35,423 nt of DNA from an uncultured Candidatus Saccharibacteria bacterium (GTDB lineage Bacteria > Patescibacteriota > Saccharimonadia > Saccharimonadales > Saccharimonadaceae), in assembly GCA_946560015.1 (NCBI GenBank), contig CAMNUC010000004.1:1-35423 (forward strand), given 5' to 3'. The notes under the pieces are model-generated. The model saw only the letters and a list, made by a program, of their open reading frames with translations. It was not told the origin of the DNA and did not search any database. The translations under genes were made by a program, and so were the position numbers. Of this stretch, positions 1,136-35,035 are shown one piece after another (the first letter of the stretch is position 1; each line of letters starts with the position of its first letter).

Positions 1136-1819
1136 ATGCAACGCATTCTGATTATTGAAGATGAGGAGCTTATGCGCCAAGGGTTAGCCGAACTTTTGCA
1201 AAGTTCCGGCTATGAGCCAATTTCACTAGAGTTAGAAACTAACCTCACGCCTAGCCTAGAATCTCTTACCGAGCAAATTCTCCAAAAGCAGCCACATTTA
1301 ATTTTACTGGACATTAATCTACCCGGCATTAACGGCGAGATGTTACTTAAGACCCTACGCACCAAATCCAACACACCAGTCATCATGGTTACTAGTAGTA
1401 GCGTAGAGATGGATGAAGTCTTATCTATGAGTTACGGTGCTGACGACTATGTCACTAAGCCGTATAATCCACAGGTTTTACTGCTTAGAATTGCCGCTGT
1501 GCTCAAGCGCGCCGAGGGTTCTAGTGGCCCTATTAAATACCGCGATCTTGAGATTGATCTTGCTCGTGGCGTTATGAAGAATCCCACCAAGCGCATTCTA
1601 CTCACCAAGAACGAGATGATCATCATTGGACATCTGCTCAAACACCAAGGCGAGATTGTTACGCGTGATGCCTTAATGACTGATCTTTGGAATAACCATG
1701 AATATATCAATGACAACGCCCTCACTGTCAATATTAGTCGCGTGCGTGCTAAAATGGCCACCCTTGGTAACCATGACGCCATTGAAACCCGCAAGGGTTT
1801 AGGGTACGTTTTACTATGA
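1136..1819 (+). CDS. OmpR/PhoB-family response regulator (BceR-like)
   Basis: Receiver domain (ILIIEDEELMRQGL, LILLDINLPGINGEMLL, PVIMVTSSS, GADDYVTKPY) plus winged-helix C-terminus (NALTVNISRVRAKM..IETRKGLGYVL). Confidence 0.93.
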   Translation: MQRILIIEDEELMRQGLAELLQSSGYEPISLELETNLTPSLESLTEQILQKQPHLILLDINLPGINGEMLLKTLRTKSNTPVIMVTSSSVEMDEVLSMSYGADDYVTKPYNPQVLLLRIAAVLKRAEGSSGPIKYRDLEIDLARGVMKNPTKRILLTKNEMIIIGHLLKHQGEIVTRDALMTDLWNNHEYINDNALTVNISRVRAKMATLGNHDAIETRKGLGYVLL

Positions 1820-2859
1820 AGTATGCAAGTTCCAATCTTGCCAAATTGGGTAGTTTTTTGCGTGGTAAAACTTACTTTCTGGGCCTCGCATCCTTCGTTA
1901 CTATCGCTGCACTTTTATTTCTCTGGGCTTTCAAAGTCCGCCTAGAAATTATTATTATGCTAGCAACTTTATGGTTCGGTTTTCTGCTGTTTAGTTTGGC
2001 TGTTGAATATTGGCGCAAAGCAGCCTTCTATAAAGCCTTGCTTGCCAATCTGGATCGCTTAGATCAAGCCTATTTAATACTAGAAACCCTCACGGAACCT
2101 CGCTTTTACGACGGCGAAATCCTTTACGCCGCGCTATATAAGATTAATAAGTCCATGCTCGAAAATGTCACTAACTACCGTATGCGCTCGCAAGAGTTCC
2201 AAGAATATGTCGAAATGTGGATTCACGAAGTAAAAACTCCCCTTGCTACTCTTAGCCTTATTTCGCACGATCCAAAAATCAACCAGCAAATTAAGCGTCT
2301 TAACGATTATGTTGAACAAATCCTATATTTCGTGCGAGCGGAGAACGCCGAGCAAGATTACCTTATCGCTGCCAATAATCTCGCCAATATCATCAATGAA
2401 GTCGCTAGCCGTAATCGAGAGGTTCTACTAGCCAAAAAGATAGATTTTGAAGTGCATGATGTTGGCTACGAAGTTTACACCGATGCAAAGTGGCTTGAAT
2501 TTATTTTGAACCAAATTATTAACAACAGTATCAAATACTCAAGTAGTAAAATTCGAATCACTACCACCATTACTGACCGAACTATTACGCTTACTATCAG
2601 TGATAATGGTATCGGTATCACCGAAAAAGACTTACCTCGCGTCTTCGATAAATCCTTTACTGGTAGCAACGGGCGTCTCGGCAAACAGTCCACTGGCATG
2701 GGCTTATACATTGCCAAAACTCTTTGTCAAAAACTTGGTCACAAAATTGAAATTGACTCTAAACCGCAACAATACACAAAGGTTAGTATTACTTTCGCCA
2801 AATCGAAGTATTTCAACGTCATTGATGCCCAAACTTACAAAAAAGTAACCGAAATGTAA
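1816..2859 (+). CDS. Intramembrane-sensing sensor histidine kinase (BceS-like)
   Basis: Two N-terminal TM helices with almost no extracellular loop, H-box MWIHEVKTPLATLSL, N-box NQIINNSIKYS, G-box TGMGLYIAK. ATGA overlap with the response regulator. Confidence 0.9.
   Translation: MKYASSNLAKLGSFLRGKTYFLGLASFVTIAALLFLWAFKVRLEIIIMLATLWFGFLLFSLAVEYWRKAAFYKALLANLDRLDQAYLILETLTEPRFYDGEILYAALYKINKSMLENVTNYRMRSQEFQEYVEMWIHEVKTPLATLSLISHDPKINQQIKRLNDYVEQILYFVRAENAEQDYLIAANNLANIINEVASRNREVLLAKKIDFEVHDVGYEVYTDAKWLEFILNQIINNSIKYSSSKIRITTTITDRTITLTISDNGIGITEKDLPRVFDKSFTGSNGRLGKQSTGMGLYIAKTLCQKLGHKIEIDSKPQQYTKVSITFAKSKYFNVIDAQTYKKVTEM
2835..2848. promoter_or_regulatory. Candidate BceR-type operator, site 2
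   Basis: TTACAAAAAAGTAA (TTAC-N6-GTAA) at the 3' end of the kinase gene, upstream of the ABC gene promoter. Confidence 0.5.
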
Positions 2860-2915: not shown

Positions 2916-3683
2916 ATGAAAACGATTTTAGAATTACAAAAAGTCGAAAAATATTATGGCAATAAGTCCTCGCTTACCAAAGCGATTAACAATATATCTT
3001 TCAAAGTCGATGAAGGCGAATTTGTTGCCATCATGGGGGCTAGCGGTTCCGGTAAAACCACTTTGCTCAATGTTATTTCTACCATCGACCGAGTGACCGC
3101 TGGACATATTTATATTAATGGTGAAGACATCACTGAACTGCGTGGCGAAGACCTTAATCGCTTCCGCAGGGAAGAGCTTGGCTTTATTTTTCAGGATTTT
3201 AACTTACTTGACTCCTTGACGGCTTATGAGAATATCGCTCTTGCACTCTCCATCCAAAACGTTAATGCTAATGAAATATCTGATCGCATTGATCGGGTTG
3301 CCAGAGAACTCAATATTAAAGATACCTTGCAGAAATTTCCATATCAGCTTAGTGGTGGTCAAAAGCAACGTATCGCATCAGCCCGCGCTATCGTAACCAA
3401 CCCTAAGTTAGTTCTCGCTGATGAGCCAACTGGCGCTCTTGACTCCAAATCTTCTCGCATGTTGCTTGAACAATTTGGTTCTCTCAACGAAAAATTCCAT
3501 ACCACTATCCTCATGGTTACGCACGACGCCTTTGCGGCTTCCTATGCCTCGCGTGTTATTTTTATCAAAGATGGAAAGATTTTCAACGAACTCCATCGTG
3601 GCAATGATGACCGCAAAAAATTCTTTAATTCCATTATTGATGTAATCACGTTGCTTGGTGGAGATCTCAACGATGCTTTATAA
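2916..3683 (+). CDS. ABC transporter ATP-binding protein (BceA-like)
   Basis: Walker A GASGSGKTT, Q-loop, signature LSGGQKQR, Walker B LVLADEPTGALDS. Adjacent to an FtsX-type permease and a two-component system. Confidence 0.92.
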   Translation: MKTILELQKVEKYYGNKSSLTKAINNISFKVDEGEFVAIMGASGSGKTTLLNVISTIDRVTAGHIYINGEDITELRGEDLNRFRREELGFIFQDFNLLDSLTAYENIALALSIQNVNANEISDRIDRVARELNIKDTLQKFPYQLSGGQKQRIASARAIVTNPKLVLADEPTGALDSKSSRMLLEQFGSLNEKFHTTILMVTHDAFAASYASRVIFIKDGKIFNELHRGNDDRKKFFNSIIDVITLLGGDLNDAL

Positions 3684-19360: not shown

Positions 19361-19472
19361 GTAAAGTACTAAACGAAACAGCTACGGGAGGTTTCCTGGG
19401 TAATCGCAAGCTAATACGTGTGTATTAACGGTGCAATACCTCAGCCCCATAGCAAAGAGAAAGGAAAACCAA
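19361..19472 (+). promoter_or_regulatory. Candidate structured rpsB 5' leader
   Basis: About 110 nt between the predicted TSS and ATG. TAATAC-GTGT-GTATTA hairpin (19412-19427); GAGGTA (19358-19363) complementary to TACCTC (19437-19442). Confidence 0.45.
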
Positions 19473-20180
19473 ATGACAATCGATCCAAAAAACATCGATA
19501 TGAAAGCCCTGCTCGACGCAGGTGCGCATTTTGGTCACAAGACCAGCCGCTGGCACCCAAAGATGGCACCATACATCCACAGCAAACGCCAAGGCGGACA
19601 CATCATCAACCTTGAGAAGACTGCCGAAGCCCTCGAAAAGGCTCTTCCTGAGCTCACTAAGATTGCTGCTAGCGGCAAGAAAATTCTCTTCGTTGGCACC
19701 AAAAAGCAGCTTAAGGATATCACCAAAGCTGCTGCCGAGTCTGTCAATATGCCCTACGTTACCGTGCGTTGGGTAGGCGGTATTTTGACCAATGTTGAGA
19801 CCATCAATCGCCAAATCAAGAAACTCAAGGATTTGGAACGCCGCATGGCTTCCGGTGAGCTAGAAGCCCGCTATTCTAAACTCGAAGTCCAGCGTTATCA
19901 AGAAGAAATCGACCTCTTAAACGAGCGCTACGGTGGTGTCAAAGAAATGACCGAACAGCCAGCTGCTATCATCGTAGTTGATGCCTGCCAAGACAAGAAC
20001 GCCATCAAGGAAGCTAAGACCCTTGGCATTCCAGTCTTCGCCATTACTGATACGAATGTCGATCCTACCAACATCGACTACGTTATCCCAGCCAACGATG
20101 ACGCCGTCAAGGCCGTCCAATTATTACTCGATTACTTTGTCGCCGCTATCAAAGCTGGCGAAGGCAAGCAAGAAGCTTAA
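19473..20180 (+). CDS. rpsB: 30S ribosomal protein S2
   Basis: MKALLDAGAHFGHKTSRWHPKMAPYI...LFVGTKKQ...RWVGGILTN...PAAIIVVDACQDKNAIKEAKTLGIPVFAITDTNVDP. Start chosen at ATG 19473, preceded by agaaagga. Confidence 0.97.
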   Translation: MTIDPKNIDMKALLDAGAHFGHKTSRWHPKMAPYIHSKRQGGHIINLEKTAEALEKALPELTKIAASGKKILFVGTKKQLKDITKAAAESVNMPYVTVRWVGGILTNVETINRQIKKLKDLERRMASGELEARYSKLEVQRYQEEIDLLNERYGGVKEMTEQPAAIIVVDACQDKNAIKEAKTLGIPVFAITDTNVDPTNIDYVIPANDDAVKAVQLLLDYFVAAIKAGEGKQEA

Positions 20181-20185
20181 AACCA

Positions 20186-20266
20186 AAACTCTACCCACTA
20201 GGTAGAGTTTCCCAGCAAGCTAACAGGGGTAGAGAAATCTCAAACTCTACCCAACAGGTAGAGTTT
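20186..20266 (+). other. 81-nt double-hairpin element, copy A
   Basis: AAACTCTACC-CACTA-GGTAGAGTTT / 31-nt spacer containing ACAGGGGTAG / AAACTCTACC-CAACA-GGTAGAGTTT. Both stems are perfect 10-bp and identical. Confidence 0.85.
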
Positions 20267-34029: not shown

Positions 34030-34836
34030 ATGGATATTTTTGAAGCAATTATATTGGGTCTAACACAGGGAATCACCGAGTTTATTCCAGTATCATCTTC
34101 TGGACATCTTGAGATCGTCCGGCAAATCTTTAACTTCTCTACCGAAAATTTTCACTTAATCCTCGAGTTTATTAACCTCGGTACTCTGCTTGCTCTGCTA
34201 ATCTATTTCCGTAAGCGTATCTGGAAAATTCTGCGTGATATTTTCAAAGAACGAAATTACAAAACCGCTCTCAATATAGTCATCACCTGCATTCCAGCTG
34301 GGATCGCTGGTCTCATCCTAGGTGATTTTATCGAAAGTAATGACTTCTTTGGCAACATCTTTACAGTTGCCGCTGCCATGGGCATCGTTGGTATCATTAT
34401 GGTGTTAATTGATAAAATCCCCCACATGTCCCATCTTGAGAACGAAGACCACCTCACCCCAGCCCGCGCTCTTATTATCGGTATTTTGCAAGTTTTCGCA
34501 TTAATACCTGGTACTTCTCGATCTGGCACCACTATTATCGCTGGCCGTATCGTTGGGCTTGATTCCGAGTCCGCTGCCGAGTATTCCTTCCTCGCCAGCA
34601 TCCCCCTCATGATCGCAGTTTGTCTCAAAATGTTCCTTTCCGACACCGGACGCACTTTTTTTAGTACCAACATGGGTCCACTAGTGCTAAGCAATCTTGT
34701 CGCTTTTATAGTCGGTTGCCTAGCCCTCACTTTCGTCATGAAATACCTCAAAAAGCCCAAATCCCTCCAATCTTTCGGCAAATATCGTATCACAGTCGCC
34801 TGTCTAGTTATTGGCATTTTGCTTATACTAGTCTAG
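34030..34836 (+). CDS. uppP: Undecaprenyl-diphosphatase (BacA/UppP)
   Basis: GLTQGITEFIPVSSSGHLEIV and PGTSRSGTTIIAGRIVGL motifs. Confidence 0.96.
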   Translation: MDIFEAIILGLTQGITEFIPVSSSGHLEIVRQIFNFSTENFHLILEFINLGTLLALLIYFRKRIWKILRDIFKERNYKTALNIVITCIPAGIAGLILGDFIESNDFFGNIFTVAAAMGIVGIIMVLIDKIPHMSHLENEDHLTPARALIIGILQVFALIPGTSRSGTTIIAGRIVGLDSESAAEYSFLASIPLMIAVCLKMFLSDTGRTFFSTNMGPLVLSNLVAFIVGCLALTFVMKYLKKPKSLQSFGKYRITVACLVIGILLILV

Positions 34837-34847
34837 CCGCATTTTGC

Positions 34848-34928
34848 AAACCTAAGCTCGCAGCTTAGGTTTAGGACTACGTTCACAGGGGTAGCAAACC
34901 AGAAAACCTAAGCCCAGAGCTTAGGTTT
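34848..34928 (+). other. 81-nt double-hairpin element, copy B
   Basis: AAACCTAAGC-TCGCA-GCTTAGGTTT / 31-nt spacer with ACAGGGGTAG / AAACCTAAGC-CCAGA-GCTTAGGTTT. Same geometry as copy A with a different stem sequence. Confidence 0.85.
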
Positions 34929-35013: not shown

Positions 35014-35035
35014 CATGCCCCCTTACGGGAGCATG
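35014..35035 (-). terminator. Likely terminator of the FISUMP gene (minus strand)
   Basis: Minus strand CATGCTCCCGTAAGGGGGCATG followed by TTCTTCTCT, just downstream of the TGA stop. Confidence 0.6.

Follow-up and report, generated by a model that had tools for sequence, protein, structure and literature searches.

Two copies of a short twin-hairpin element, here called A and B, were present in the window (the whole 35,423 nt stretch of DNA that was analysed), and these are probably non-autonomous, dispersed palindromic DNA repeats of one Saccharibacteria genus, which resemble REP/BIME repeats in behaviour without being proven members of that class. Spread in the manner of REP repeats, within one gut Saccharibacteria genome and a small number of related ones, is the most likely reading. 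The genome holding the window (G000) is a MAG of 831 kb in 54 contigs, 82% complete with 6% estimated contamination, and the relatives with which it was compared are also MAGs.

Copies A and B and their conserved core

Copy B was located at positions 34848–34928 of the forward strand, with sequence and coordinates exactly as given in the first-pass annotation. It consists of hairpin 1 (HP1, 34848–34872; 10-5-10, AAACCTAAGC-TCGCA-GCTTAGGTTT, stem subfamily AAACCTAAGC), a 12 nt linker (34873–34884) with GTTC at its end where the consensus is GCTA, the conserved core ACAGGGGTAG (34885–34894; family consensus YTAACAGRGGTRG), a second linker of 9 nt (34895–34903), and hairpin 2 (HP2, 34904–34928; 10-5-10, AAACCTAAGC-CCAGA-GCTTAGGTTT) with the same stem as HP1. 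Copy A (20186–20266), also on the forward strand, has its first hairpin at 20186–20210 (stem subfamily AAACTCTACC), the core ACAGGGGTAG at 20223–20232 and its second hairpin at 20242–20266. The single layout previously described for both copies (10/5/10/12+10+9/10/5/10) was confirmed, as was the adenine as last base of all four loops.

Both copies closely follow a gene. The forward-strand uppP/BacA gene (34030–34836, PF02673) ends 11 nt ahead of copy B, in agreement with the position 3′ of uppP noted earlier, and the 3′ part of a FISUMP gene (PF09603, 35045–35422, reverse strand) lies approximately 116 nt away in convergent orientation, with the contig ending within the gene. A terminator-like hairpin, CATGCTCCCGTAAGGGGGCATG, is located directly behind this FISUMP gene (35014–35035, reverse strand) and is separate from copy B. 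Copy A splits the rpsB-tsf pair, starting 5 nt past the end of an rpsB-like gene (30S S2, named by protein sequence; 19431–20180, forward strand) and ending 21 nt before the start of tsf (EF-Ts, PF00889; 20288–20911, forward strand). An unbiased scan of the window for twin hairpins with a common arm of 7 or 8 bases, spaced 10–80 nt apart, detected only A and B, and no twin same-arm hairpins were found in 100 dinucleotide shuffles of the window. Both copies fold much better than shuffled sequences (z about −6 for DNA and about −5 for RNA).

The core ACAGGGGTAG occurs twice in the window (0.03 expected) and four times in the whole genome, with no matches for the reversed-pattern control. All four genomic occurrences are inside twin-hairpin elements at an equal offset (A, B, C6:20622 and C40:5761). 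The identical core at identical offset in A and B was thus correctly described in the first-pass annotation, which had also raised the possibility of a core restricted to these two loci; that possibility falls, because the further exact cores sit in twin-hairpin elements. Of 13 occurrences of ACAGGGGTRG in the genome, 12 adjoin such a hairpin. The core was also considered as a motif enriched across the order, and this was rejected: the order-wide excess of ACAGGGGTAG over the reversed control was not taken as evidence because coding sequence (TTA ACA GGG GTA G, specifying LTGV, for example in tsf of L044) makes up at least part of it. The pattern GYTMACAGGGGTAG matched in 35 of the 394 genomes of the order that were scanned, and no twin hairpins were present at the fetched loci outside G000. 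Several loci in other genomes of the genus (L242, L238, L243 and L080) display an ACAGGGG-type motif, in one orientation or the other, with a terminator-like hairpin on one side and a promoter-like sequence on the other, and such motifs may be the source of the element core.

Family members, stem subfamilies and turnover

Allowing one change in the core added C5, C8, C10, C25, C30, C35, C15 and C9 to the members in G000, with C16 and C19 consisting of HP1 and core only. With looser cores, approximately 13 two-hairpin and 8 partial copies were counted, numbers which vary with the scoring of partial copies. A covariance model built from six members added C2 and C11, plus the decayed or partial copies C22 and C31. 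Solo hairpins with family stems also exist, at C15:272 (identical to HP1 of copy A in 25/25 bases) and just ahead of the C40 element. Four or more additional species of the genus also contain members (G015, G461, G417 and G390), with three copies in G015, eight in G417 and two in G390, the latter on inspection; genus-wide, matches at E ≤ 0.01 were obtained in only 15 of 148 genomes, with several of these being weak or chance matches. The dispersed family postulated from A and B is therefore real, with fixed geometry and a conserved core in about 20 copies at unrelated loci, and with members in other species. No description of a twin-hairpin repeat family of this kind was found in the literature searched.

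The stems fall into a few subfamilies, with each stem found at several loci, and were not locus-specific as first proposed. Stem AAACCTAAGC is common to B, C40, C8, C2, C15 and G461:C59, stem AGTTTTCGAC to C6, C5, C10, C25, C30, C9 and the right half of C35 (a chimeric element), stem AAACTCTAC(C/A) to A, C11 and the G015 copies, and stem GAACTTGTAC to C16, C19 and L099. Maintenance of stem identity within an element, a further proposal of the first-pass annotation, did not hold up either, as mismatches between HP1 and HP2 of one element (mean 3.8 and 5.0 in the two best-sampled subfamilies) were about as frequent as those between HP1 and HP2 of different elements of one subfamily (mean 3.8 and 4.6). 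Many stems show decay: most copies pair imperfectly, and many, such as C8, C15 and C10, contain uncompensated stem mismatches. An HP1 variant, GCTTAGCTTT, is common to C40, C8, C2 and G461:C59, and its presence at several loci argues that inheritance and spread involve entire elements. On these comparisons the elements appear to be copied whole, with the hairpins diverging afterwards.

Pairwise BLAST of copies with 800 nt on either side placed the bounds of homology, counted from the core, at −37 to −40 and +44 to +47 (C6-C9, C10-C9, C10-C30, B-C40, B-C2, C40-C8 and others), with the exact edges uncertain by a few bases, and most pairs at unrelated loci had no homology in their flanks. Since homology between unrelated loci halts at the element edges, the element is a discrete dispersed unit of approximately 81–84 nt. 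Exceptions were duplicated FISUMP gene blocks (C10-C25 and the three G015 copies) and the G417 set, where homology extends past the edges; some copies (C10-C25 and the G015 set) thus moved with FISUMP gene blocks, and ordinary gene duplication accounts for part of the dispersal.

Copy A was absent from the rpsB-tsf gap in all 12 closest relatives. The same gap in L099, which was assigned to the G461 genome on the basis of identical match positions, contains a hairpin of a different subfamily with a core-like sequence, and therefore this gap was hit twice. No element was present behind the uppP orthologues of relatives with a readable downstream region. Judged from these sites, A and B represent gains in the G000 lineage relative to the relatives examined. 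Turnover was seen at a site 3′ of a FISUMP gene, where G461:C59 and G000:C31 have near-identical flanks and a 56-nt difference, with a full element in the former and a single hairpin in the latter. This single hairpin combines the HP1 loop with the HP2 right arm, and deletion between the direct-repeat hairpins therefore fits better than insertion with hairpin duplication, which was also considered. The two states of this orthologous site, two hairpins with core versus a single hairpin, indicate that the hairpins act as direct repeats that recombine or slip.

Association with FISUMP surface-protein genes

Eight of about 18 G000 copies are within approximately 500 nt of a FISUMP (PF09603) gene, while FISUMP genes occupy about 4.5% of the genome on a generous estimate. 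The binomial probability of this proximity is about 5e-7, or about 3e-3 with linked copies collapsed, both being rough, post hoc values. All three copies in G015 start at a FISUMP stop codon. At four loci in G417 and two loci in G390 the element is exactly central between back-to-back, different FISUMP 3′ cassettes of 60–70 aa, with identical ends (FVRSG and SLRCLAIE / PLRCLSTVLGM) that are conserved at the DNA level. These cassette pairs (G417: L273:6610–7165, L274:98–610, L275:5048–5551 and L276 around 273–575; G390: L374:2662–3190 and L375:2768–3349) are scattered among housekeeping genes, with most centred on a twin-hairpin element, and the back-to-back arrangement suggests that a variable surface protein has a silent repertoire. 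FISUMP genes were also observed at or near many G000 contig ends (C3, C4, C16, C31, C40, C42 and others), a pattern that repeated loci, or loci mixed within the population, would be expected to produce.

About half of the G000 copies have no FISUMP neighbour (A in rpsB-tsf, C6, C8, C30, C2, C9 and C15), and a causal role for the element is therefore only a minority reading. In its most far-reaching form, this reading would have the element operate within an antigenic-variation-like system of Saccharibacteria, in which silent back-to-back FISUMP 3′ cassettes occur genome-wide in pairs centred on the twin-hairpin core element, with the element promoting their spread and exchange into full-length surface-protein genes; we regard this as unlikely.

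Relation to known repeats and alternative explanations

GTAG REPs are small extragenic palindromes with a GTAG/GTGG motif, several stem families per genome, and dimers (PMC3733652). As with our element, GTAG REPs and BIMEs, including the Stenotrophomonas SMAG repeats, are dispersed short extragenic palindromes often found behind genes, in families which differ in stem and loop and have the GTAG/GTGG tag in common, and are often paired 20–100 bp apart (PMC3733652). The palindromes of 25–26 nt found here at about 20 intergenic loci fall within the 20–40 bp of REP/BIME palindromes, at a copy number low for REPs. The element differs in that its two hairpins are invariably head-to-tail, at a fixed distance and around a central core of 10–14 nt, with stems of 10 bp, loops of 5–6 nt, a low copy number and no RAYT found. 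In GTAG REPs the tag is at the stem foot and head-to-tail dimers are rare (PMC3733652), whereas in A and B the GTAG/GTGG starts 18 nt after HP1 and ends 9 nt before HP2, and the element is therefore filed as REP-like in behaviour and not as a REP. The REP/BIME-like nature suggested in the first-pass annotation was consequently upheld for size, palindromy, extragenic position and a core resembling a GTRG tag, but not for the placement of the tag relative to the stem, nor for an associated Y1 transposase.

Other structured repeats show partial similarity. Miniature elements derived from IS200/IS605 (PATEs) insert 3′ of a fixed tetra- or pentanucleotide and generate no target-site duplication, and resemble the element in that a subterminal hairpin lies at either end, the two having similar stems; here only about 31 nt separate the hairpins, the stems vary by subfamily with the middle conserved, the edges have no tetranucleotide in common and no TnpA was found. 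Integron attC sites are likewise imperfect palindromes behind genes, variable in sequence and conserved in structure, and follow an R-box pattern of RYYYAAC ... GTTRRRY. Judged by eye, these boxes are absent from the element ends, which read AAAC...GTTT or AGTTTT...AAAACT, and attC sites do not have a conserved core inside them. A CRISPR mini-array would offer palindromic direct repeats of 25–26 nt around a spacer of 30–31 nt, but in the element the spacer core is common to all loci, the repeats differ between loci, and the units are single and dispersed.

The TnpA_REP/Y1 partner that had been proposed was not encountered, with no Y1_Tnp (PF01797) match in G000 and matches in only three of 100 genomes of the genus; as G000 is only 82% complete, a transposase gene could be missing. 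Neither a target-site duplication nor a conserved flanking tetranucleotide was present at the element edges, with left-edge tetranucleotides differing between copies (ACCA, TTGC, GGCA, CTCA, TTGG, GTTG and ATAA, given edges uncertain by a few bases). There was no autonomous relative with the same ends among the loci seen (the domain searched was Y1_Tnp, in G000), and no copy B homologue in phage or plasmid collections; a core scan of IMG/VR returned 61 contigs with the core and none with the twin element. Reverse transcriptase was considered as partner and rejected: it is present in all four genomes tested, but in differing types (IGNLTSQ, PGSQ and QGSPIS forms), and there is therefore no common partner. 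Two diversity-generating retroelements were observed. In L285 (G000:C8) a reverse transcriptase gene (1261–2373, reverse strand) is accompanied by 80-nt repeats at 2516–2595 and 3188–3267, approximately 670 nt apart, with six differences, all at positions where one repeat has an adenine on the coding strand, while the second, in L286 (G417), has 11 differences, all at adenines. A tyrosine-recombinase-like gene lies about 1 kb from copy C8 (L018 / L285, G000:C8:7188–10600), and the retroelement lies about 2.5 kb from this copy; its immediate neighbour is a small MerR-like gene, and the locus may border a mobile island.

Coincidence, or one recent duplication of a single locus, would account for the similarity of A and B and nothing further, and is refuted by the empty shuffles, the approximately 20 copies at unrelated loci and the members in other species. 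Mobilisation as a classical GTAG REP/BIME by a RAYT (TnpA_REP) is very improbable and for G000 largely refuted: small size, extragenic palindromy, the GTAG/GTGG motif, several stem families and dimers are as in GTAG REPs (PMC3733652), but the GTRG is 9 nt from the hairpin instead of at its foot, the head-to-tail dimers that are rare in GTAG REPs (PMC3733652) are universal here, Y1_Tnp is missing from G000 and from all but three of the 100 genus genomes, and about 20 copies compare with >100. It is also distinctly doubtful that the element is a functional RNA or transcription end, with twin hairpins forming an attenuator or bidirectional terminator at mRNA 3′ ends, the core serving as a protein- or RNA-binding site, and two alternative folds (two hairpins, or a long hairpin with the core in its loop). 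Copies A, B, C8, C16 and those of G015 do follow a stop codon by at most about 30 nt in the same orientation, and one long hairpin is the minimum-energy RNA fold of A, B and C40. However, neither orientation nor position is kept (C30 follows rpsH in inverted orientation, C25 separates divergent genes and C9 precedes a gene start), the terminator scan (GC-rich stem plus T run) scored no element hairpin of A or B, there were no Rfam matches at gathering score in the window, and the elements are absent from relatives. Pairing has decayed in many copies, and the two-hairpin and long-hairpin folds are preserved to the same degree (364 versus 363 of 400 pairs), so that covariation cannot tell which fold matters.

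It may be, though we consider it rather unlikely, that the element serves a dispersed FISUMP surface-protein repertoire at sites of recombination or at cassette junctions, marking or promoting the exchange of variable 3′ cassettes by gene conversion or site-specific recombination, with isolated copies such as A as relics. The above-expectation proximity in G000, the stop-codon positions in G015 and the central position within the G417 and G390 cassette pairs favour such a junction, whereas the many copies without a FISUMP neighbour and the lack of a linked recombinase count against it, as does a G417:C56 pair with only about 80 nt between its FVRSG sites, which is too short for an element and has no core match. 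Moreover, surface-gene regions tolerate insertions, and the enrichment could follow from this tolerance alone.

REP-like spread has points counted against it as well, namely that no transposase, no target-site duplication and no conserved flanking tetranucleotide were found, that about 20 copies is low compared with usual REPs, that some copies moved inside FISUMP gene blocks, and that the proximity to FISUMP genes suggests the element may be more than parasitic DNA. The unit is hairpin – ~12 nt – YTAACAGRGGTRG – ~9 nt – hairpin (81–84 nt), and under REP-like spread whole elements would be spread in trans by machinery recognising the folded single strand and the core, following REP/IS200-like logic, with this machinery presumably encoded elsewhere or now lost. 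After insertion, copies would decay as mostly harmless intergenic sequence, and some may terminate transcription weakly in both directions or form mRNA 3′ ends.

Most catalogued REP-like repeats come from Proteobacteria, and a limited search found no literature treating REPs jointly with the Candidate Phyla Radiation. A small-genome episymbiont with a compact hairpin-core-hairpin repeat and no usual transposase offers a simple case for how such repeats spread, and the position of the element between variable surface-protein cassettes may indicate a mechanism of diversification in bacteria which live attached to other bacteria.
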